A stretch of 64,000 nucleotides of DNA from the NCBI RefSeq assembly GCF_030064165.1, contig NZ_CP125947.1:3162001-3226000 (forward strand), given 5' to 3'. Source of the stretch: Comamonas resistens (GTDB taxonomy: Bacteria; Pseudomonadota; Gammaproteobacteria; Burkholderiales; Burkholderiaceae_C). The translations under genes were made by a program, and so were the position numbers. Positions 4,433 to 44,074 of this stretch are shown here, piece by piece. Position 1 is the first letter of the stretch; each line of letters starts with the position of its first letter. The notes beneath the pieces were generated by a model. That model was not told where the DNA came from, did not search any database, and saw nothing but the letters and a program-made list of their open reading frames with translations.

Positions 4433-4510
4433 GGGCTTGCGCAAACAAGGATGTGCCAAGGACTGCCGTCTTGAAACCAAGCTCTTGTCTGAATCTGATT
4501 TGCGCAAGTC
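4433..4510 (+). repeat. 78-bp dispersed repeat, copy 1
   Basis: Begins GGGCTTGCGCAAAC and ends GATTTGCGCAAGTC, so the ends are imperfect inverted repeats. Three other copies of exactly 78 bp lie at 28322-28399 (reverse), 34561-34638 and 43978-44055. This copy sits in the promoter-side gap between the LysR gene and the BASS transporter. Confidence 0.85.
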
Positions 4511-4605
4511 GTGCCCAATACACAGCCACCGCCCCGGAGCGCTGTGCAAGATTCACTACAAGTCAACGGCCGCATTCCATTCGCCTTGCCGGCCCCATCA
4601 GAACC

Positions 4606-28191: not shown

Positions 28192-28321
28192 GGGAGCGTT
28201 CGACGCGGGAAGCAAAGGGCTACGCCCATTGTCCACGAGCCCAGACCCATGAATGGCATAGCCCTAGAGAAGCAGTTCTTTCGTCGGCCGCATTTCACTC
28301 ATGGTGCTTTCTTTTCAACAC

Positions 28322-28399
28322 GAGCTACACAAATCAGGTTCAAGTCAGAGCTCCGCCTCTGGACAACAGCCCTTGGTGCATCCTTTTTTGCGTAAGCCC
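28322..28399 (-). repeat. 78-bp dispersed repeat, copy 2 (reverse)
   Basis: On the minus strand it begins GGGCTTACGCAAAA and contains GAACCTGATTTG near the end, matching the copies at 4433, 34561 and 43978 in length and order. It lies between the helicase and H-NS genes. Confidence 0.8.
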
Positions 28400-28695: not shown

Positions 28696-29118
28696 GACGC
28701 GTCTCCTCTATGAATCCTCTAGGTGCGCTTGGCTTTCAATGCCTGCGGGCGTATCCGCGGCGCCATTTTTTGCTGCGAGATGCCGGAACCTGTCCATGAA
28801 CTGAGATTCGTCCTGCCGATAGTTCCGGGCCAGGTGGCGTGCTTCGACACCTACTTTCCAGCCCCACACTGCCACGACGGGCAGGAAGACACTGGAAGTT
28901 GCAAGCCACCCTCTTGACTCCGGCGCACCAGGGCATCGAAGAAGCGGCAAGCTCCACGGCACCGGTCCTCGGCTCGACAGAACGCCGCACAGGCAAGAAC
29001 ACCTGTTTGTGCGGCTGTGCCATTGATCAGCGCTCGCTCACACCGGGGTCTGAGCAGATGGCTGCAATCAACCAGCAGTCATCACGCCAATCCTGGAAGA
29101 GTCGGAACTGGTGAGGCC
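28696..29118. other. Gap with only a doubtful 84-codon frame
   Basis: A minus-strand frame (28708-28962) could encode a short protein with a charged C-terminal half, but it has no recognised family, signal or ribosome-binding site. No other feature is visible. The stretch is probably the H-NS promoter region or decayed DNA. Confidence 0.4.
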
Positions 29119-29556
29119 TCAATGCTGCGCCAGTTGCTGGCACTGCCGGCGACGCCAGACAGACTCGCGTACCGCTTTGGCATCATCGAACACCACCTTG
29201 TACTGGCACACCAGCAGATTGCCCGATTGGGGCTGGCGCAGCTTGAAGTTGTAATCCCACTCCTGCCCCTTGGGGCTGGAAGTTTGCGTCAGGGGTTCGC
29301 CCAGCGCCTGCTGCACCTGCTCCTGGGCCATGCCGGGCTTGATGGCGCGAACGCCGTCAAGCTTGTTCAGCACGCCATCGCGGGCGAACTCTGGCTTCAT
29401 CTCGGCGTAAGACACATTGACGTCGGAATACTGCAGCTTGTCCGGGTTGCTGATGGCATCCTCGGGGTTGTCGCGTGCCCCTGCGGGCATGGCGATACAG
29501 GCTGCGGCAGCCAGCACCAGGGCGGAAAGGCGGAAGGTGGATTCAAACATGCTCAT
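29119..29556 (-). CDS. BamE/SmpA-OmlA-like small exported protein
   Basis: 145 residues from the ATG at 29556, preceded by GAGAGGATG. The signal peptide runs to about AMPAGA. The mature part contains GVRAIKPGMAQEQVQQALGE (about 76-95) and WDYNF, the conserved fold of BamE/SmpA proteins. No lipobox Cys is at the cleavage site (the only signal-region Cys is in AACIAMPAG), so anchoring is uncertain. It lies 45 bp after the HlyD gene as the last gene of the type I secretion operon, so it may help stabilise the outer-membrane component or the adhesin. Confidence 0.78.
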   Translation of the reverse strand: MSMFESTFRLSALVLAAAACIAMPAGARDNPEDAISNPDKLQYSDVNVSYAEMKPEFARDGVLNKLDGVRAIKPGMAQEQVQQALGEPLTQTSSPKGQEWDYNFKLRQPQSGNLLVCQYKVVFDDAKAVRESVWRRRQCQQLAQH

Positions 29557-29601
29557 GGCATCCTCTCTCATTAGAATCAAAAAAACACGCGCTGCCGGGC
29601 T

Positions 29602-30891
29602 TCAGCGCTCTCGCAAGGCCTCGCGCGCCTTGTTCAGCGGCTTGGTCAAATAGTCCCAGACGGTCTTGCGACCCGTGCGGATATCGGTAGCTGCCACCAT
29701 GCCCGGCACAATGGGCATGCGCTGGCCGGCCTTGTTCACCAGCACGTCCGAATCGGTGCGCACCAGAACCGGGTAATAGACGATTTCGGGCTTGACCTCG
29801 TCGCGCTGGGTGTCCGGGGCAATCGTCACCACCTGGCCCTTGAGGCCGCCATAGACCGCGTAGTCATAGGCAGTCACCTTGACCAGAGCCTCCTGGCCTG
29901 GACGGATGAAGGCAATGTCGCGCGGCGAGATATGGGCCTCCACCAGCAACTGATCATCGAGGGGCACCAGGGCCATCAGCAAGCCGTTGGGTGGTACCAC
30001 GCCGCCGATGGTCGTGACCTGCAGGCTCTTGACCACACCCCGCACCGGCGACTGCAGTGTCAATCGCTCCAGTGAATCCGCACGTCCACGCACCACCGAA
30101 GACAGGGACTTCGCCTCCGCATCTGCCTTGGCCAGCTCCTCGCGGCTGCGCACCATGTAGCTGGAGCGCGCCTCGGCGATCTTCAGCTCCAGCTCCGCTC
30201 CCTGACGCTGCAAGCGGATAAGCTCGACGCTGCTGGCCGCACCGCTGGCCTGCAGCGACTGCGTGATGCCCAGTTCCTTGCGCACCAAGGCCAGCGCCTG
30301 GTTCAGACCTGTCACCGTATCGTTCAGCGCCGCGCGGCGTGAACGGAACAGCGCGCTCTCCGAGGCCTTGAGCTGCGCATGATCATCCAGCTCCTGAGGG
30401 AACTGCAGGCTGTCGCGGCCCTCGACCTCGGCACGCAAGCGCACGCTGGCGGCCAAAGCCGCACGGTATCGGGCCGCAGTCTCCTCCACGCTGGACTCGC
30501 CACGCGTAGGTTCCAGCTTGGCCAGCACCTGACCTTTCTCCACGATATCGCCCTCGTGCACCAGCAGCTCGGACAGAATGCCGCCCTCCAGTGACTGGAT
30601 GCGCTGTTCGCGCGAGGACGGGATAACCTTGCCACTGCCGTTGGATACCTCGTCGATCTCGAAGAACCAGGCCCATGCCAGAAAAGCCAGCACAAAGGCC
30701 GTGACCAGCCACACCACACGATCCGAATGGCTTGCGCGTACCTCGTCGAAGTCACCTATGACCGGCATGGCAGCATGCCGACGCGCAGACCCGGGCATGG
30801 GTGAAGGCATGGGCGCGGACTCAGCCGTCATCGCGGGTGTTGTTGTGGATGTGGCCTTCGATGTCTCACCGGGCACTGCTGTCTCCGTCAT
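29602..30891 (-). CDS. HlyD-family type I secretion periplasmic adaptor (LapC-like)
   Basis: 429 residues. A cytosolic Pro/Ser/Thr-rich leader of about 60 residues precedes one transmembrane helix (VVWLVTAFVLAFLAWAWFF). The lipoyl-type half-motifs (GGILSELLVHEGDIVEKGQ near 105), a coiled-coil hairpin (150-265) and the beta-barrel domain (SPRDIAFIRPGQEALVKVTAYDY) follow. It bridges the inner-membrane ABC exporter and TolC. Its start overlaps the ABC gene stop by 4 bp (ATGA), so translation is coupled. Confidence 0.95.
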   Translation of the reverse strand: MTETAVPGETSKATSTTTPAMTAESAPMPSPMPGSARRHAAMPVIGDFDEVRASHSDRVVWLVTAFVLAFLAWAWFFEIDEVSNGSGKVIPSSREQRIQSLEGGILSELLVHEGDIVEKGQVLAKLEPTRGESSVEETAARYRAALAASVRLRAEVEGRDSLQFPQELDDHAQLKASESALFRSRRAALNDTVTGLNQALALVRKELGITQSLQASGAASSVELIRLQRQGAELELKIAEARSSYMVRSREELAKADAEAKSLSSVVRGRADSLERLTLQSPVRGVVKSLQVTTIGGVVPPNGLLMALVPLDDQLLVEAHISPRDIAFIRPGQEALVKVTAYDYAVYGGLKGQVVTIAPDTQRDEVKPEIVYYPVLVRTDSDVLVNKAGQRMPIVPGMVAATDIRTGRKTVWDYLTKPLNKAREALRER

Positions 30892-33155
30892 TCCTGCCCC
30901 TCCTCTGCAGAGACCAGTCTTTTCACCGGTTGCACCGCTACCTTCATGCGCCCACTCTGCACGACGCGAACATTCTGCTGCGGGGCTGCCTGCTGGACAC
31001 CGCCATTCAGGCGCTTGAGCACCTCATCGCGCGCGCCCTGCAACACCACCTGCCCCTTGTCCACCACGATGATCTTGTCCACCGCCTGCAGCACAGCGGG
31101 CCGGTGCGTGGCCACGACCAGGGTGCGCCCCGGTGCAAGCTTGCGCAACCGGGCAATCACGTCACGCTCGGCCACATCGTCCAGCGCCGCCGTGGGCTCG
31201 TCCAGCAGCAGCACGCGCGGCTGGCGCAACATCAGGCGCGCCAACAACAGACTCTGACGCTGACCGCCCGACAGGCCTTGCCCTCCTTCCATGACCATGT
31301 GATCCAGCCCCGTGGGCAGGGTGCACACAAAGGCCCAGGCACCCGCGTCCTGCAGCGCAGCCATGAGTTCCGCATCGCTCGCATGAGGAGCGCCCAACAG
31401 CAGGTTCTCGCGCAGCGAACCGTAGAACAGTCGCGCATTTTGCGTCAGCAGGCCTACGTCGCGGCGCACGTCGGCCGGGTCTATGTGGGCCAGAGCCACG
31501 TCGTCCAACAGCAGGCGCCCGCTCACGGGTTCGGTCAGACCCGACAGCGCCTGCAGCAGCGTCGACTTGCCCGCTCCGTTGCGCCCCAGGATGGCGATGC
31601 GCTCACCGGCTGCGATCTGCAGCTTCTTGACCTGCAGTGCCGGGGTCTTGCCGTCGTAGCTGAACACGGCTTCGCTGAAGTCGTAGCGCCCCTCGATGAC
31701 AGGGCGGTGGACGCGGCTGCCGTCCTCGGCGTGGTCCACGGGCAGGTGCATGAGCTGGTCCAACCCATCGCTGGCCATCTTGGCCTGCTGCCAGCGATTG
31801 AGCACACCGGTCACGCTGGACAAGGGCGCCAGCATGCGGCTGACCAGAATGGAAGAGGCAACCAGCACGCCTGTGCTCATCTCGCCGCGCATCACCTGGG
31901 GAGCGCCAAAGAACACCACAAAGGCGAAAGCACTGCCCTGCACCGTCTGCATCCAGTTGCTCAGATGATGCAGCAATGCCCGCAGCTTCAGACCCGACTC
32001 GGCATTCACGACGTTGTAGTGATTCCACTGATTCTGAAAGCGCGGCTCGGCCTGCAGCAGCTTGATGTCCTCAATGCCCTGCACCGTCTCCACCAGCATG
32101 GCATTGCGCAGCGCCGATTCGCGCATGTTGGCCTGAGCCAGCTTGCGCAGACGCTTTTGGGCCAGCAGGCTGGGCGCCAGCAGCAGCACAAAGGCCGCCA
32201 GCGGCACCCACACCAGCGAGCCCGCAATCATCCAGAAGATGAAGCAGAACAGCAGAAAGAACGGCAGGTCGGCCACGGCCGCTGCCGTGGTGGAAGTCAG
32301 CATCTCCCGCACCGGCTCCAGCTCACGGATCTGGGCCACAAAGGTTCCTGTGGCGCGCGGACGGGCGCTGTTCTTCACGCGCAGCGCATGACCGAAGACG
32401 CGGTCCGAAATGCGCAGGTCTGCCCGCTTGCCCAGCATGTCGGTAATGTGCATGCGCGCGGCGCGCATGGCCCAGGCAAACGCAATGGACAGCAGCACAC
32501 CGCCGAACAGCACATACAGCGTGGGCTCGGACTGGGACGGCACCACGCGGTCATAGACCTGCATGGAAAACAGAATGCCGCCCAAGGCCATCAGATTGGT
32601 GATGAACGAGGCCAGCAGAATATGGCCATAAGGTCGCAGATCGGCAAACACGATGTCGCGCAGCCAGTGACGCTTCACGGGGCGCAGGTAGCTGTCCACG
32701 CGCGAGTCGGGTGCCGACTGCAACGGACGCAGCACCGCCATGGTCTCCACCTCGGGCTGCAACTCGGCCAGCGTGTGCGTGCTCTCGCCGCCCTCGTCGC
32801 CGCTCAGCAGCAGGCGCAAGCCGCCCTCGGTCAGAGCCGTGACGACAGCCACCTGCCCGCCGCGCAGCTGCACGGCCACGGGTAGACGCCAGGCCGTCAA
32901 CCGCGCCAGGTCCGGAGCCACCTCGGTCACGGCAAGACCTGCCTGCTGGGCCATCTGGCGCATGCCGTGGCGCAAATCCTCGCTAGACATGCCATCGGCC
33001 GCCCAGGCTGCGTCCACACGCAGACGCTCGCGCGAGGTATCGATCTGGTAATGCGCTGCCACTGCCAGCACGGCGTCCAGCCAGCCCTGCATCAATGGCG
33101 GCAATTGCTTGGCGCTTGCCTGCTCGGCAGCTACCTGGTTCATCGCTTCGTTCAT
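30888..33155 (-). CDS. Type I secretion ABC transporter, permease/ATPase (LapB-like)
   Basis: 755 residues. Residues 15-155 form a C39-peptidase-like domain that lacks the catalytic Cys at the expected N-terminal position, so it would dock rather than cleave cargo. The transmembrane domain (about 175-465) follows. The ATPase has Walker A GRNGAGKSTLL (about 525), signature LSGGQRQSLLLARL, Walker B VLLLDEPTAALDD and the H-loop His in ATHRPAVL. This architecture is that of LapB-type exporters for giant RTX adhesins. It overlaps both neighbours by 4 bp. Confidence 0.95.
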   Translation of the reverse strand: MNEAMNQVAAEQASAKQLPPLMQGWLDAVLAVAAHYQIDTSRERLRVDAAWAADGMSSEDLRHGMRQMAQQAGLAVTEVAPDLARLTAWRLPVAVQLRGGQVAVVTALTEGGLRLLLSGDEGGESTHTLAELQPEVETMAVLRPLQSAPDSRVDSYLRPVKRHWLRDIVFADLRPYGHILLASFITNLMALGGILFSMQVYDRVVPSQSEPTLYVLFGGVLLSIAFAWAMRAARMHITDMLGKRADLRISDRVFGHALRVKNSARPRATGTFVAQIRELEPVREMLTSTTAAAVADLPFFLLFCFIFWMIAGSLVWVPLAAFVLLLAPSLLAQKRLRKLAQANMRESALRNAMLVETVQGIEDIKLLQAEPRFQNQWNHYNVVNAESGLKLRALLHHLSNWMQTVQGSAFAFVVFFGAPQVMRGEMSTGVLVASSILVSRMLAPLSSVTGVLNRWQQAKMASDGLDQLMHLPVDHAEDGSRVHRPVIEGRYDFSEAVFSYDGKTPALQVKKLQIAAGERIAILGRNGAGKSTLLQALSGLTEPVSGRLLLDDVALAHIDPADVRRDVGLLTQNARLFYGSLRENLLLGAPHASDAELMAALQDAGAWAFVCTLPTGLDHMVMEGGQGLSGGQRQSLLLARLMLRQPRVLLLDEPTAALDDVAERDVIARLRKLAPGRTLVVATHRPAVLQAVDKIIVVDKGQVVLQGARDEVLKRLNGGVQQAAPQQNVRVVQSGRMKVAVQPVKRLVSAEEGQE

Positions 33156-34537
33156 CGCATCACTCCCTGGCCCCGGTCACGCAGCCGGGTATCCAGCGCG
33201 AACTCATCGGCCAGCCGCCCGCTCTGGTACCAGCACTCCACGGCCAGCCGCTGCAGGTCATGGGCGCTATCCACCTGTTCAAAGCGCGCGCCGTGGTATT
33301 CCTGCTCGGCGTTGAGCAGATCCAGCAGCGAGCGTGTACCCAATTGCAGATACTGCTCACGGTACAGATCGCGCGTGATGCGGATGCTGGCGATACGCTG
33401 GTCAACCACTGGCTGACGCTCCAACAGACCCAGGCTCTGGTCCTGCGCGTCGCGCAGCGACTGACGCGCCTGGAACTCGGCGTTGGCCACTGCCGCGTCG
33501 GCGGCCTCCAGCGCATGGCCGGCCGCGCGCTGGCGTGCCTGGTTGCGCCCGCCTTCGAACAGCGGTGCCGAGACATTGAACATCACGCGCATGTCCACAT
33601 CCGGGTAACCTGCCGGACGCGAGGCGGCGTTCAACCCGCGCGAGGCCGAGCCATCCACCGACAGCGTGGGCATGAGTTGCGCATCGGCCGCCTTCAATTC
33701 GGCCAGGGCCTGTGCCCGCTGCCCCTGAGCCCGGCGCACCGCTGCCGTGGGCTGCACCTGCGCGGCGGCGCAGGCCTGGGGCAGAGCATCGGGCACACCG
33801 CCTTTTCCTGAATTCGCTTCACTCACTGTAGGTGGCGTCTGCAACCCGGTCAGAGTCATCAGCCGCGCTTGCCAGCGGCGCGCCTGCGCCTCGTAATTGA
33901 TCAATTGGCCACGCGCGCCATCCATGCGCGACTGTGCCTGCATAAAGTCCGAACGGGTGCTCGCACCCTTGAGCTGACGCTCCCTGGCCAGCTCCGCCAG
34001 CGCGCCCACGCCTTCGAGCTGACTTTTGGCAATCGCCACCATGGCCTGCTGGCGGCGCAGCTCCACCCAGGCCTGCGCAGCCTCGCGTGCCACATCGTCG
34101 GTGGACAGATAAACCTGCGCCTGGGCAACCTCAATGCTGGCCTCGGCCTGCTGCACGGCGCTGTCCACCTTGCCGAAGTCGTACAGCATCTGCGACACCG
34201 AAACGCTGGCGTCATAGACACGTCGCGAGGTATAGGGGTAGACATCCCGGTTGTTCACCTGCGCCCCCAACTCGCCCTTGACCTGCGGGTAATAACCGGC
34301 GCGGGCCGAAGCCACGCCCTCATCTGCTCCCAGCAATTGCCCCTGCGCCGTACGCACGGCAGGGTGCCACGCCACAGCCGCCTGTACCGCTGCACGCATA
34401 TCCATGGCCAGGCCCGGCCTGGCCTGGCTTGCAGGCTCTGCTGCCTGGGCTGCACCCATCGCGCAGACCAGCGCGACCGCTGCTGCGGCCTGGCGCATGG
34501 AAGGCACAGGAAGTGGGGACTTGATCAACATATCCAT
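33152..34537 (-). CDS. TolC-family outer membrane efflux/secretion protein (LapE-like)
   Basis: 461 residues from the ATG at 34537 (MDMLIKSPLPVPSM). The longer frame to 34666 runs through the 78-bp repeat and is rejected. The signal peptide ends near AAQAAEP. Two TolC repeats are seen, each with a long helical hairpin and short beta strands (VKGELGAQVNNRDVYPYTSRR, MLYDFGKVDSAVQQAEA; then LSVDGSASRGLN, APLFEGGRNQARQ). It forms the outer-membrane channel of the type I system. The gene order (adhesin remnant, TolC, ABC, HlyD) matches LapA-type export loci. Confidence 0.93.
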   Translation of the reverse strand: MDMLIKSPLPVPSMRQAAAAVALVCAMGAAQAAEPASQARPGLAMDMRAAVQAAVAWHPAVRTAQGQLLGADEGVASARAGYYPQVKGELGAQVNNRDVYPYTSRRVYDASVSVSQMLYDFGKVDSAVQQAEASIEVAQAQVYLSTDDVAREAAQAWVELRRQQAMVAIAKSQLEGVGALAELARERQLKGASTRSDFMQAQSRMDGARGQLINYEAQARRWQARLMTLTGLQTPPTVSEANSGKGGVPDALPQACAAAQVQPTAAVRRAQGQRAQALAELKAADAQLMPTLSVDGSASRGLNAASRPAGYPDVDMRVMFNVSAPLFEGGRNQARQRAAGHALEAADAAVANAEFQARQSLRDAQDQSLGLLERQPVVDQRIASIRITRDLYREQYLQLGTRSLLDLLNAEQEYHGARFEQVDSAHDLQRLAVECWYQSGRLADEFALDTRLRDRGQGVMR

Positions 34538-34560
34538 CGCTATCGCTATCTCTATCGCTG

Positions 34561-34638
34561 GGGACTCACGCAGATCAGGATTCGCCAGGACCGCTTCCTT
34601 GAGGCGAAGCAGGTACCCGAACCTGATTTGCGTAAGTC
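34561..34638 (+). repeat. 78-bp dispersed repeat, copy 3
   Basis: Begins GGGACTCACGCAGATC and ends GATTTGCGTAAGTC. Same length and core (CTTGAGGCGAAGC) as the copies at 4433, 28322 and 43978. It lies just upstream of the tolC start. Confidence 0.85.
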
Positions 34639-34751
34639 GTGTTGCTGTTTCACAGCTTGGCATCACGGCGCTCTGCCGCGATCACCACTCCACATCGCAG
34701 CACCCAGGCCGGCGACACAGACTGTTTGTTCTTCTGATTGCTATCGCTTAT

Positions 34752-34830
34752 ATAGCTGGCAGCGCACACAGCACGCCGTTTCAAGCATTTCTCATACTTG
34801 AAACGGCGTACCTCAGGCGCTGGCAGCTAT
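34752..34830. repeat. Long intergenic hairpin (AGCTG-AGCGC arm family)
   Basis: Outer arms ATAGCTGGCAGCGC (34752-34765) and GCGCTGGCAGCTAT (34817-34830) pair at 13 of 14 positions. Inner arms ACGCCGTTTCAAG (34773-34785) and CTTGAAACGGCGT (34797-34809) pair perfectly. It lies directly after the adhesin remnant stop codon and before tolC, so it may limit readthrough between a very large adhesin message and the exporter genes. With copy 3 of the 78-bp repeat, it accounts for the 309-bp gap. Confidence 0.75.
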
Positions 34831-34846
34831 CAGGTTTGATGAAGCA

Positions 34847-35327
34847 TCAAACATGCACCGGCTGGTGCAGCTCCTCCTCAGGCAGCGGAGCTGGCATATA
34901 CAGCGCCAGATCCTGCGGCGCAGCTACAGGCGCTGCGGGTGCAGCAGGCGCATCCGCCGAACCCAGTCCTGCGATATTGCCGCCAGCCTCGCCGGCTGCA
35001 GTCTGGGGCTGTAGCACATCGTGCAGCGCAGGCAGAGCGGCAGGATCGTCCGCATCCGCATGCAGGGCATCAAGATGCTCCAGATCCAGGCTCATGGCCA
35101 TCATCGGCGACGCATGCGCAGGCTTGGGTCCGGGGTCCCCACCGTTGTAGACCACCTTCACATCCTTGACGGTCGATGCGGTGTCGCCATCCATGTCCTG
35201 AATGGTGTAGCCGAACTTGTCCCAATAGGAACTCTGCGCCTTGCCCACATAGGTGAACTTGGCCGTATCGAGCTCCACGGTCAACGAGCCCTCCATCCCC
35301 GTCTTGACGGTGATGATGTGCTTGACT
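34847..35327 (-). pseudogene. C-terminal remnant of a large type I-secreted adhesin (LapA/BapA-like)
   Basis: About 160 codons remain. The frame begins at the insertion-sequence boundary (VKHIITVKTGMEG) and runs to a normal stop. FGYTIQDMDGDTAST resembles the ends of VCBS or RTX-adhesin repeat domains. An Ala/Pro-rich tail ending in LPEEELHQPVHV is the likely uncleaved secretion signal. It lies directly upstream of tolC in the same direction, where LapA-type adhesins sit. The 5' part is absent at the other end of the insertion sequence, so the protein is almost certainly not made in full. The family assignment is by domain resemblance and context. Confidence 0.7.
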
Positions 35328-35454
35328 TGTTGATTTCCACCCAGAAGTGACCCACTAGCCCCCGGTTTTTCCATCTCAATCTGACCCACGCATTAACCCT
35401 AGCCTGCTGCTTTCTTGTGCAGCAGGAGACCAGGAGTGATTGACGTGGCCACTT

Positions 35455-35905
35455 TGCTCTAGCCAATCGTTGAGGGCTCTGAGTGTCGGAAACGCTGGTA
35501 CAGATTGCCAGATACGATGGCGAGCGTCCCGAACATTCTTCTCGACCTGTCCCTTCTCCCATCCCGAGGCTGGATTGCAAAACTGTGCCTCGAACAGGAA
35601 ATGGCTGGCCATAGCGCTGAAGCGGGCGTTGACCTCTCTGAGCTTGCCACGGCCGACACGATCGACGGCTGTGCGCATGTTGTCGTAGATCCCCCGCCTA
35701 GGGACGCCTCCAAACACCGCAAAGGCACGGTTGTGGGCATCGAACAGCATCTCATGGGTTTGCAGGGGATAGGCCCGCAGATAGAAGGCTCGGCTGTGGC
35801 TGAGCTTGAAGTGAGCCACTTGGAGCTTGGTGCGTACACCCGCGATGACAGCCCAATCCTCGCTCCAATCAAACTGGAAGGCTTCTCCAGCGCCGAAGAC
35901 CAGGT
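35455..35905 (-). pseudogene. istA fragment, inverted inside the IS21 element
   Basis: About 150 codons of the IstA transposase catalytic region, read on the minus strand: [12 protein letters not shown] (first Asp of the DDE triad), FGGVPRRGIYDNM and NPASGWEKGQVEKN (Glu). The first 120 or so residues and the C-terminus are missing. Its direction is opposite to the istA start codons at 35436-35455 and to istB, so the piece has flipped. Confidence 0.85.
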
Positions 35906-35914
35906 TCCCTGGTC
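35898..35914. repeat. Inversion junction palindrome in the IS21 element
   Basis: GACCAGG-TTC-CCTGGTC is a perfect 7-3-7 inverted repeat exactly where the minus-strand istA piece meets the plus-strand istB piece. It fits a fold-back or template-switch event. Confidence 0.7.
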
Positions 35915-36442
35915 TACAGAGATCTGGCAGGCTTTGACTTCGCACACAGTGAAGTCAATGAAGCCTTGGTACGCAGCCTTCATCGCTGTGAGTTCATCGA
36001 GAAGGCTAACAATGTGGTGCTTGTCGGTGGGCCTGGCACGGGCAAGACGCACATTGCTACGGCACTGGGTATTCAGGCCATTGAGCACCACCGTCAAAGG
36101 GTGCGCTTCTTCTCTACTGTGGAATTGGTTAATGCCTTGGAGCAAGAGAAAGTGCAAGGCAAAGCCGGACAGCTCGCCCACAGGCTGGTGCATACGGATC
36201 TGGTGATACTCGATGAGCTGGGCTATCTGCCCTTCAGCTCATCAGGTGGTGCACTACTGTTTCATCTACTCTCGACGCTTTACGAACGCACCAGCGTAGT
36301 AATCACCACCAACCTGAGCTTCAGCGAATGGGCCAGCGTGTTTGGTGATGCCAAGATGACCACGGCTCTGCTGGACCGCCTGACCCACCACTGCCATATT
36401 CTGGAAACAGGCAACGACAGCTACCGCTTCAAGCACAGCAGT
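35910..36442 (+). pseudogene. istB fragment (IS21 helper ATPase)
   Basis: About 178 codons starting near YRDLAGFDF and containing Walker [13 protein letters not shown], Walker [14 protein letters not shown] and the sensor region [17 protein letters not shown]. The N-terminal part is lost at the inversion junction. The C-terminal end is cut after DSYRFKHSS by the IS3 element. The readable frame continues into the IS3 sequence to 36577, giving a chimeric tail. Confidence 0.88.
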
Positions 36443-36472
36443 TGGGCTGCTGCCGGTTTCGTCGACACCAGC

Positions 36473-36946
36473 CTAAGCTTCTCGAGCTTCCTCGAACTCT
36501 ATCGGACTGATGTACCCAAGCGTCGAGTGCCGACGCGTCGGGTTGTAGAACCGCTCGATGTAATCAAATACATCTGACCTCGCTTGCTTGCGCGAGCGGT
36601 AGATCTTGCGAGCCGTGCGCTCCGTCTTCAGACTGCTGAAGAAGCTTTCCATTGCCGAGTTGTCCCAGACTTCGCCAGCACGGCTCATGCTGCACACGAT
36701 GCCTTGCTCATTCAGCAGATGCTGGAAGTGCTCGCTGGTGTACTGGCTGCCCTGGTCAGAGTGATGCAGCAATTCCTGCGGCCGTCCACGACGCCAAACA
36801 GCCATCATCAGCGCATCAGCCACGAGTTGGCTGGTCATGCTGGACTGCATCGACCAACCCACGATGCGTCGCGAGTACAGGTCCAGCACCACCGCCACAT
36901 ACAGCCAGCCTTCAGCCGTCCAGATATAGGTAAAGTCGGCCATCAC
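36473..36946 (-). pseudogene. IS3-family orfB, C-terminal DDE catalytic part
   Basis: 157 codons holding the rve integrase core: ADFTYIWTAEGW (first Asp), LDLYSRRIVGW, HHSDQGSQYTSE (second Asp), SAMESFFSSLKTE (Glu). The N-terminal part of orfB (FGFVAKHRGAWPVNLMCEAL, about 36950-37075) is in another frame. Around 70 residues of the HTH_21 region are missing at about 36945, so no intact transposase can be made. Confidence 0.88.
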
Positions 36947-37069
36947 TCAGGCTACGCTGGCTGCGTGGCCTCACCAACCAGGCATAGAAGCTACTTCGCG
37001 AGACACCGAGCGCCTCGCACATCAGATTCACCGGCCAGGCCCCTCGGTGTTTCGCAACGAAGCCGAACT

Positions 37070-37363
37070 TCACATCGACTCCTTGGCGAAGAAGGCCGCG
37101 GCTTTTTTCAGGATGTCGCGCTCCATCTTGAGCTTGGCAACCTCCTTGCGCAGCCGCTCTATCTCGGCCTGCTCGGGCTTCATCACACCCTTGCCGGGGA
37201 ACGCCTGCTGCGAGTCTGCCGTCAGCTCGCGCATCCATGCCCTCAGCCGCGTCTCGTGCACATCTAGATCGCGCGCAGCTTGCGCCACTGCAACGCCTCG
37301 CTCGGTCACCAGCTTGACCGCTTCAACCTTGAATTCCCGGCTGAACTGCCGTCTCGTCCCCAT
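37070..37363 (-). CDS. IS3-family orfA (transposase helix-turn-helix subunit)
   Basis: 97 residues, apparently intact: RRQFSREFKVEAVKLVTERG (HTH_8 start), AQAARDLDVHETRLRAWM recognition helix, and a C-terminal leucine zipper (EIERLRKEVAKLKMERDILKKAA). It would normally be joined to OrfB by a -1 frameshift. With orfB deleted it may act at most as a binding or inhibitory protein. Confidence 0.9.
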   Translation of the reverse strand: MGTRRQFSREFKVEAVKLVTERGVAVAQAARDLDVHETRLRAWMRELTADSQQAFPGKGVMKPEQAEIERLRKEVAKLKMERDILKKAAAFFAKESM

Positions 37364-37644
37364 AAACTACCTCCGGTTTCATCTTCCACCTTAACAAGGT
37401 GTCTTTGAAACCGGCAGCAGCCCAGAAGGAGAGAAACAAAACCTGATCCACATCTTGAGCCTTGCGGCTCAAGTCAAAGGGTGGGTCAGTTTGAGATGGA
37501 AATGGCGGGTCAGTTTTGCGTGGAAATTAACACACGAACGGCAGCTCGCAGCCTGAAGCAGCCCCACAAGTGAGGGTATGCAGAATTTTCTGTACACAGG
37601 CAAAACCGGATCAACCGTGAGGCTCAGATCGGAACTTCTATAAG

Positions 37645-38145
37645 CTATCGCAACATGCAATACTCTTGCAGCTTTTCCGAGAGCTCGGCAACTGCCTGTG
37701 GATCTGCTATTCCATTGCGCCCGCAGGTCAGCACAAGATGCTTGGATGCAGCACCTATCCATCCTTCGTCATCATCATCGAGCGCCACCCAACGAGTGGC
37801 CGACCTCCGTGTTGCATCAGCCAAGACTTGTGCGCCGCGAGTCATGGCATCGAACTCAAATTTGTTCATCGTGCTGTGAAAAGTGGCACCGATCACTCGT
37901 GATCGTAAAGCTTCTGGAAGATAGGCCTTCGCTTGAGAGAATCCCAGAACGCGAACCCATGATGTCGACAAAACGATACGCACGTCAGGATGCAGCGCCA
38001 GTGCGTCAACGAGGATTTCTGCGTGTTCGAACAAGGCATGACCAGTGTGGTCGACACCGAAATACATTCCACCTCTAGGGTGCCTGTAGACGGGCTCTGG
38101 ATGCAGGACTCCGTCATAGTCAAGATAGAGAATCGTCTTGGACAT
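37645..38145 (-). CDS. HAD-like protein (Swiss Army Knife RNA repair-type HAD domain)
   Basis: 166 residues from the ATG at 38145, which has AAGAG upstream. Motif I is LYLDYDGVLHPE (nucleophile Asp near residue 8, acid/base Asp two later), motif II is IVLSTSWV (about 60), and the late motif is WVALDDDDEGW (about 127). This matches the compact HAD domain first described in RNA-repair Swiss Army Knife proteins, which also occurs alone in many bacteria. The substrate is unknown. It lies between an IS wreck and tRNA-Pro, so it may be island cargo. It has no operon partner. Confidence 0.75.
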   Translation of the reverse strand: MSKTILYLDYDGVLHPEPVYRHPRGGMYFGVDHTGHALFEHAEILVDALALHPDVRIVLSTSWVRVLGFSQAKAYLPEALRSRVIGATFHSTMNKFEFDAMTRGAQVLADATRRSATRWVALDDDDEGWIGAASKHLVLTCGRNGIADPQAVAELSEKLQEYCMLR

Positions 38146-38318
38146 GCACTCTTGTGGACTGAAGCCATCGGTCACATGGAAACAACCTCCTGGGCATCCT
38201 ATTTGCAAAACGAGGAGATGCCGGGAGTGATGAGTCTAGAGCAGTCGCAGACTGAATCACCTTGTGCATGGAGGTCTGCGTCGCGCCCCTGCGGTCAGGC
38301 ACGGTATTTCTATCTACC

Positions 38319-38340
38319 GTTACCCCCTGAGTTACCCCCT
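38319..38340 (-). repeat. Tandem GTTACCCCCT motifs near tRNA-Pro
   Basis: Two copies at 38319-38328 and 38331-38340, 12-bp period. On the minus strand they read AGGGGGTAAC twice. Strings of GGGGGTA often precede integrase genes of tRNA-borne islands, but no integrase is present here, so they may be the scar of one. Confidence 0.45.
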
Positions 38341-38364
38341 TTTTGAGGTAATTTCGCTACAATA

Positions 38365-38402
38365 GAAAAAGGGCTCCTAACTTCATAGCTAGGAGCCCTT
38401 AT
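38365..38402 (-). terminator. Terminator of tRNA-Pro
   Basis: On the minus strand GGGCTCCTA and TAGGAGCCC form a perfect stem followed by five T, just past the tRNA 3' end. Confidence 0.88.
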
Positions 38403-38408
38403 CTAGAT

Positions 38409-38485
38409 TGGTCGGAATGGCGGGATTCGAACTCGCGACCCCTTGCACCCCATGCAAGTGCGCTACCAGGCTGCGCTACATTCCG
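38409..38485 (-). tRNA. tRNA-Pro (anticodon GGG)
   Basis: 77 nt including encoded CCA. The acceptor stem CGGAATG/CATTCCG, D arm with AGCCTGGTAGCGC, anticodon stem CTTGC/GCAAG around loop ATGGGGT (anticodon GGG), and T arm with GTTCGAATC all pair. Reads proline codons CCC and CCU. Its 3' end faces the IS/HAD region, the side on which integrative islands usually insert. Confidence 0.97.
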
Positions 38486-38494
38486 AAGACTTGA

Positions 38495-38500
38495 ATTATA
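38495..38500 (-). promoter_or_regulatory. -10 element of tRNA-Pro
   Basis: TATAAT on the minus strand lies 10 bp before the mature 5' end. A matching -35 at ideal distance is not obvious. Confidence 0.5.
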
Positions 38501-43977: not shown

Positions 43978-44055
43978 GGACTTACGCTATCAAGGATGTG
44001 CCAGGAACCTCAGCCTTGAGGCGAAGCTCCTGCCTGAACCTGATTTGCGCAAGTC
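43978..44055 (+). repeat. 78-bp dispersed repeat, copy 4
   Basis: Begins GGACTTACGCTATC and ends GATTTGCGCAAGTC. It lies in the infC-rpmI gap of the ribosomal operon. Core CCTTGAGGCGAAGCTC matches the other copies. Confidence 0.85.
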
Positions 44056-44074
44056 GCGATTCTTTCCCTGCCGT

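Follow-up and report, generated by a model that had tools for sequence, protein, structure and literature searches.

In Pseudomonas, the adhesin LapA adjoins a dedicated type I exporter, LapBCE. We analyzed a 64,000-nucleotide stretch of the Comamonas resistens genome (hereafter the window) that contains such an exporter, and compared it with related genomes, which are referred to by G numbers, G000 being the genome analyzed here. The exporter's ABC protein was found at an E-value of 1e-150 or better in 10 of the 53 genus genomes searched, this one included. The original prediction placed a LapA/BapA-like adhesin upstream of such exporters, and comparison at the tolC locus bore this out for the BapA_N type: a full adhesin frame lies directly upstream of the same exporter in G050 (3837 aa), G048 (3406 aa), and G007 (1277 aa). 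Each of the three proteins combines a BapA_N prefix with Big_9/cadherin repeats and a VWA domain and shares its C-terminus with the remnant described below; they contain 28, 24, and 4 Big_9 stretches, respectively. The prefix domain, PF22783, is present in G033 as well as in these three, and the adhesin of G045 extends past the end of its contig. Genes for a response regulator and a 7TM sensor kinase are oriented divergently to the adhesin gene in the relatives. No published account of this cluster was found in literature listings and abstracts or in the accessible part of PMC10122671.

In the window, the adjacent TolC/ABC/HlyD exporter that is a feature of BapA_N-type adhesin loci is present (29602-34666, minus strand; Table 1). 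The operon is intact, as had been noted: all four frames of tolC, abc, hlyD, and the BamE-like gene are open, and the three exporter proteins score above the NCBIfam cut-offs for type I secretion components. Homology with the clusters of G050, G048, G007, and G045 stops at 29116-29117. The gap between the adhesin and tolC carries a repeat of about 85 bp that is found in G000, G050, and G045 and cleanly absent from G048 and G007, and this presence and absence indicates that the repeat is, or formerly was, mobile. With its inverted ends and long hairpin, the repeat also occurs at 43978-44056 and, more weakly, at 4440-4513 and 28316-28399, and at least 36 copies lie elsewhere in the genome (36 of the 50 matches listed, with 40 of 163 candidates scored). 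Plasmid mobility of the locus was considered and rejected, as no plasmid record covered 80% of 28900-37600, the best being from Variovorax (40% at 77%).

Table 1. Features of the window around the truncated adhesin gene.
Feature	Position	Strand	Evidence or remark
BamE-like small envelope protein, final conserved cluster gene	29119..29580	-	PF04355
HlyD-family periplasmic adaptor	29602..30891	-	TIGR01843, 322 bits (cut-off 209)
Type I secretion ABC permease/ATPase	30888..33155	-	TIGR03375, 772 bits (cut-off 693)
TolC-family outer membrane channel	33152..34537 (ORF extendable to 34666)	-	TIGR01844, 243 bits (cut-off 225)
Palindromic dispersed repeat (~85 bp) between adhesin and tolC	34562..34642	.	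Comparison of relatives
Adhesin remnant	34847..35327	-	Last 159 codons and stop of giant BapA_N-type adhesin
Defective IS21-like element	35328..37532	.	blastn against four full-length copies in the genome and the Comamonas sp. C11 plasmid copy
IS21 left end	35328-35456		99.2% identical to full-length genomic copies
IS21 inner segment, inverted	35454-35903		95.3% identical to full-length genomic copies
IS21 inner segment	35900-36442		92.8% identical to full-length genomic copies
Nested IS3-like element	36443..37423	-	Bounds are the gap between IS21 segments
IS3-like integrase-core ORF	36473-36946	-	Pfam rve
IS3-like HTH_Tnp_1 ORF	37070-37363	-	Pfam HTH_Tnp_1
IS21 right end	37424-37532		94.5% identical to full-length genomic copies
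Right IS flank: HAD_SAK_2 gene (37645-38208) beside tRNA-Pro	37549..38330	-	PF18143
tRNA-Pro(GGG)	38409..38485	-	ARAGORN

The adhesin stop codon lies at 34847, the last adhesin base is 35327, and the IS21-like element begins at 35328. The short frame of about 160 codons noted as starting at the left end of an IS21 element is real: a 180-codon ORF at 34847-35389 has a GTG start within the IS, its final 159 codons are complete adhesin codons on the minus strand, and the remainder is the IS21 end. In the 0.34 kb bordering the IS (34992-35327), the remnant DNA is 83-90% identical to the adhesin 3' ends of G007, G048, and G045, and 63% identical to that of G050. DNA homology reaches the last bases before the IS (35327 in G048, 35326 in G045, and 35324 in G007), and in protein alignments the remnant carries the adhesin's own C-terminal tail, common to far longer BapA_N-type adhesins. 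Because homology runs up to the IS edge and the C-terminus is common to longer adhesins, the adhesin identity of the remnant is not a matter of chance. The G050 adhesin diverges just before the common tail, unlike those of G048, G045, and G007, which is a sign of domain swapping. A likely secretion signal in the remnant went unconfirmed at the level of domain models: TIGR03661, which we take to be the model of the C-terminal type I secretion target domain, gave no match at an E-value of 0.01 in the remnant or in the G050 adhesin.

The adhesin thus ends at the first IS base, but the predicted IS21 element is not whole, having missing and inverted parts and a second element nested in it. Its IS21 family membership is indicated by TG...CA ends and by relatives annotated with istA/istB; no intact istA/istB was found in the window copy, its segments being missing and inverted. 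Four mutually identical full-length copies of 2496 bp occur elsewhere on the chromosome, one of them about 76 kb away in the opposite orientation, and compared with these the remaining parts of the IS21 are missing from the window copy. The two inner segments are nearer to the copy on the Comamonas sp. C11 plasmid (96.9% and 96.7%) than to the full-length genomic copies. A 450-bp part (35454-35903) is inverted between two deletions, with joint overlaps of 3 and 4 bases, and may have arisen through template switching or end joining. Within the nested element, 36443-37239 shares 92.7% identity with part of the G007 region compared, in which IS21 itself had no match. Judged from these features, the window IS21 looks like a fossil that would be unable to move on its own. 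No target duplication flanks it, an absence that fits a deletion but is not specific, because three of the four full-length copies also lack one, the fourth having TATTCAG. No flank of another IS21 copy pairs with the window flanks over 4 bases or more.

The site was also found without the IS. A public protein of 210 aa, P0001, is identical to the remnant at 156 of 156 residues, and its upstream part is adhesin sequence where this strain has the IS, aligned to residues 3194-3406 of the G048 adhesin. P0001 was one of three short homologues of the remnant recovered in a search restricted to proteins of 0.55-1.75 times the query length, a size range within which long adhesins cannot appear. Since P0001 is encoded on a 4,323,506-bp contig, it does not come from the 5.25-Mb chromosome analyzed here, and since it continues in adhesin at the IS position, the IS is not fixed. 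About nine of its residues beside the IS position do not fit G048 and may represent a frameshift of the same DNA. As P0001 comprises just 210 aa, its frame must also be interrupted farther upstream, through sequencing error or for real. P0001 shows the site free of the IS, without in itself being proof of an intact adhesin in that strain. A relative with the same short gene and no insertion sequence, the observation singled out beforehand as speaking against truncation by the IS, is matched in part: P0001 is short and free of the IS, but its frame is interrupted upstream. None of the best 120 of 234 matches to the regulator lay on the P0001 contig.

We searched the rest of the genome (5.30 Mb, with the locus on a single 5.25-Mb contig of a three-contig assembly) for the missing part of the adhesin. 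BapA_N (PF22783) gave no match in the window or the genome, in a search in which 14 control genomes were silent too. In a second search, 10 of 12 Comamonas genomes matched, which establishes that the search works; the silent ones were this genome and G021. Big_9 repeats likewise gave no match in this genome, and the other three of the four genomes in that search matched. A 20-kb stretch of G050 (L033) produced one long match, from the adhesin's last 0.24 kb through tolC, and its other matches were short, paralogous, or repeat (40 of 143 candidates scored). No match to the adhesin, regulator, or kinase DNA of G033 was reported among 40 of 76 candidates scored, among which two other pieces of the G033 region were found elsewhere in this genome. 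The adhesin 5' part, suggested to lie beside another IS21 copy, was thus not found by any of these searches and is most likely gone from this genome.

To the right of the IS, 37549-38500 and the second tRNA-Pro locus of G028 share 84.6% identity. The 16 bases that directly follow the IS on this side resemble G028 no more closely than shuffled sequences do (2989 of 5000 reach the score), which leaves an uncertainty of about 16 bp in the right breakpoint. In the 12 relatives' loci compared, homology from the merR side ends at 38323-38394, and gene order near tRNA-Pro varies among the relatives compared. The HAD_SAK_2 gene, whose domain Pfam describes as a HAD domain in RNA repair proteins, adjoins tRNA-Pro, and the same pair stands at the second tRNA-Pro of G028. 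In this genome, a second tRNA-Pro(GGG) lies at G000:C1:1755656-1755732 (L145 9656-9732), on the opposite strand and 1.44 Mb from the window copy. The HAD gene is at the other tRNA-Pro copy in G028, and the adhesin cluster is downstream of the other copy in G050. The two tRNA-Pro(GGG) genes seem to have exchanged downstream flanks; an inversion through them would exchange flanks, but the gene order of G033 does not fit a single inversion.

G033 gave the best match to the 6.1-kb tRNA-Pro/phe region (92%; merR, 91% at the nucleotide level), and the nearest genome varies gene by gene, ihfA and pheT, for example, being closer to G050. A 19.6-kb contig of G033 carries tRNA-Pro, about 13 kb with several other genes, the kinase, the regulator, and then the adhesin 5' end, within which the contig ends. 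The orientation of BapA_N, the regulator pair, and tRNA-Pro is that expected from the window. The HAD gene is absent from this contig, so a single clean deletion would not turn a G033-like order into that of the window. The G033 assembly, which is 85% complete, yielded no match to the exporter. The presence of the adhesin 5' end near tRNA-Pro in G033 fits a deletion in the window.

Taken together, we consider it likely that the adhesin body and the regulator pair were removed by a deletion ending at an IS21-like element that lay toward the 3' end of the adhesin gene. The ancestral cluster would have comprised the response regulator/sensor kinase pair, a divergent giant adhesin gene, and then tolC, abc, hlyD, and the bamE-like gene. 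An IS21-like element would have settled within the 3' portion of that adhesin gene. A deletion, one endpoint of which coincides exactly with the IS, would have taken the remainder of the adhesin together with the regulator pair, setting the right end of the IS beside the HAD gene adjoining tRNA-Pro. The route may have been recombination of two IS copies or a transposase-made adjacent deletion; either leaves the IS at the breakpoint, and the data do not separate them. We infer the order of the deletion relative to the scrambling of the IS, and this scrambling makes the original state of the element unreadable. Deletion is favored by the long adhesins in relatives, the absence of a 5' match in the genome, and the adhesin-IS junction defined to the base; of the two events originally proposed, deletion or inversion, an inversion with the 5' part kept does not fit. 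The strain would retain an adhesin tail lacking its body and an exporter for which this genome no longer encodes a substrate of BapA_N type, and adhesin-dependent attachment would be expected to have been lost in this strain.

An alternative is that the cluster was imported ready-truncated from the Comamonas testosteroni group, so that no adhesin was ever lost in this lineage. The exporter is indeed close to that group: between 30.2 and 35.0 kb, its DNA shares 94.8-97.5% identity with that of G050, and dS to G050 is 0.09 for abc, 0.15 for tolC, and 0.23 for hlyD. Values for other window genes are 0.16 (ihfA), 0.24 (rplT), 0.25 (pheT), 0.27 (infC), 0.32 (pheS), 0.53 (50099), 0.62 (thrS), 0.87 (54042), 0.91 (merR), and 0.98 (55448), so that abc and tolC fall below all 10 and hlyD below 9 of the 10. 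However, ihfA, rplT, pheT, and infC are likewise near G050, and dS in genes such as these is often low through codon bias. The BamE-like end of the cluster is clearly more diverged (82% identity; dS 0.42-0.64), suggesting that a recombination tract entered a locus already resident, and in P0001, identical to the remnant, the site is free of the IS. The exporter core is probably best explained by such a tract from the C. testosteroni group, and import of a truncated cluster is improbable.

The exporter itself shows no sign of decay, as its dN/dS and private changes resemble those of the relatives. Pairwise dN/dS for its three genes spans 0.03-0.14 when this genome is one of the pair and 0.05-0.14 among the relatives themselves. 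With G007 and all codons having more than one change or gaps left out, the private N/S counts summed across tolC, abc, hlyD, and the BamE-like gene are 24/78 in G000, 15/55 in G050, 7/64 in G045, and 31/106 in G048. Of the 24 private replacements in G000, 13 fall in the BamE-like gene, and the exporter alone (11/56) is within the range of the relatives. An undecayed exporter would fit either a recent loss of the adhesin or an exporter still in use, and the term orphan exporter holds only with respect to BapA_N/Big_9-type substrates, neither domain having a match in the genome. That the exporter has taken on a non-BapA substrate encoded at another locus, or that its cargo is the IS-adhesin fusion frame, is unlikely; in either case, the loss of the giant adhesin would be a cargo switch rather than decay. 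Narrower still is the proposal that the 180-codon frame starting within the IS is a working small protein, exported by the adjacent system and keeping the exporter under selection. The frame is open, its C-terminus is conserved, and exporter dN/dS is not raised. However, a simple scan of 34500-35700 found no promoter-like site (0.4 expected by chance), the three homologues found include no like fusion, and low dN/dS is equally expected after recent loss, which makes such a protein very unlikely.

Repetitive adhesin genes are known to break assemblies, and the contigs of G045 and G033 end inside theirs; nevertheless, an assembly error has little to recommend it here, because the locus lies within the single 5.25-Mb contig noted above, the left flank is DNA that occurs once in the genome, and the IS can be told apart from the other copies by its divergence. 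Least credible is a split of the adhesin by inversion or translocation with its 5' part beside another IS21 copy, for which four other copies, one in opposite orientation, are available but which, barring a replicon missing from the assembly, is contradicted by the genome searches (none of BapA_N, Big_9, adhesin 5' DNA, or the regulator pair was reported, the two DNA searches resting on the candidates scored) and by the unpaired flanks.

This kind of event is well known; the value of the case is in the close comparison. Loss of the adhesin body by deletion at the IS would make this locus a strain-level case in which the adhesin is lost, the exporter is intact, and a public sequence has the same site without the IS. 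It makes it possible to test directly for how long an exporter dedicated to one cargo outlasts it, and it indicates that exporter genes alone are no predictor of an adhesin.

Compared with known systems, the window copy differs from the IS21 family in its broken, partly inverted istA region, its nested IS3-like element, and the lack of a target duplication. The copy on the Comamonas sp. C11 plasmid, annotated with istA/istB, is 96.7-99.2% identical in three of the four retained segments and 94.2% identical in the right end. The locus shares the order tolC, abc, hlyD, bamE-like and the adhesin C-terminus with the adhesin cluster of the C. testosteroni group (G050, G048, and G045). In contrast to that cluster, the divergent regulator/kinase pair is missing here, and about 96%, 95%, and 88% of the adhesin is missing relative to G050, G048, and G007, respectively. 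As in LapA/LapBCE of Pseudomonas, what remains of the adhesin stands beside its dedicated type I exporter.
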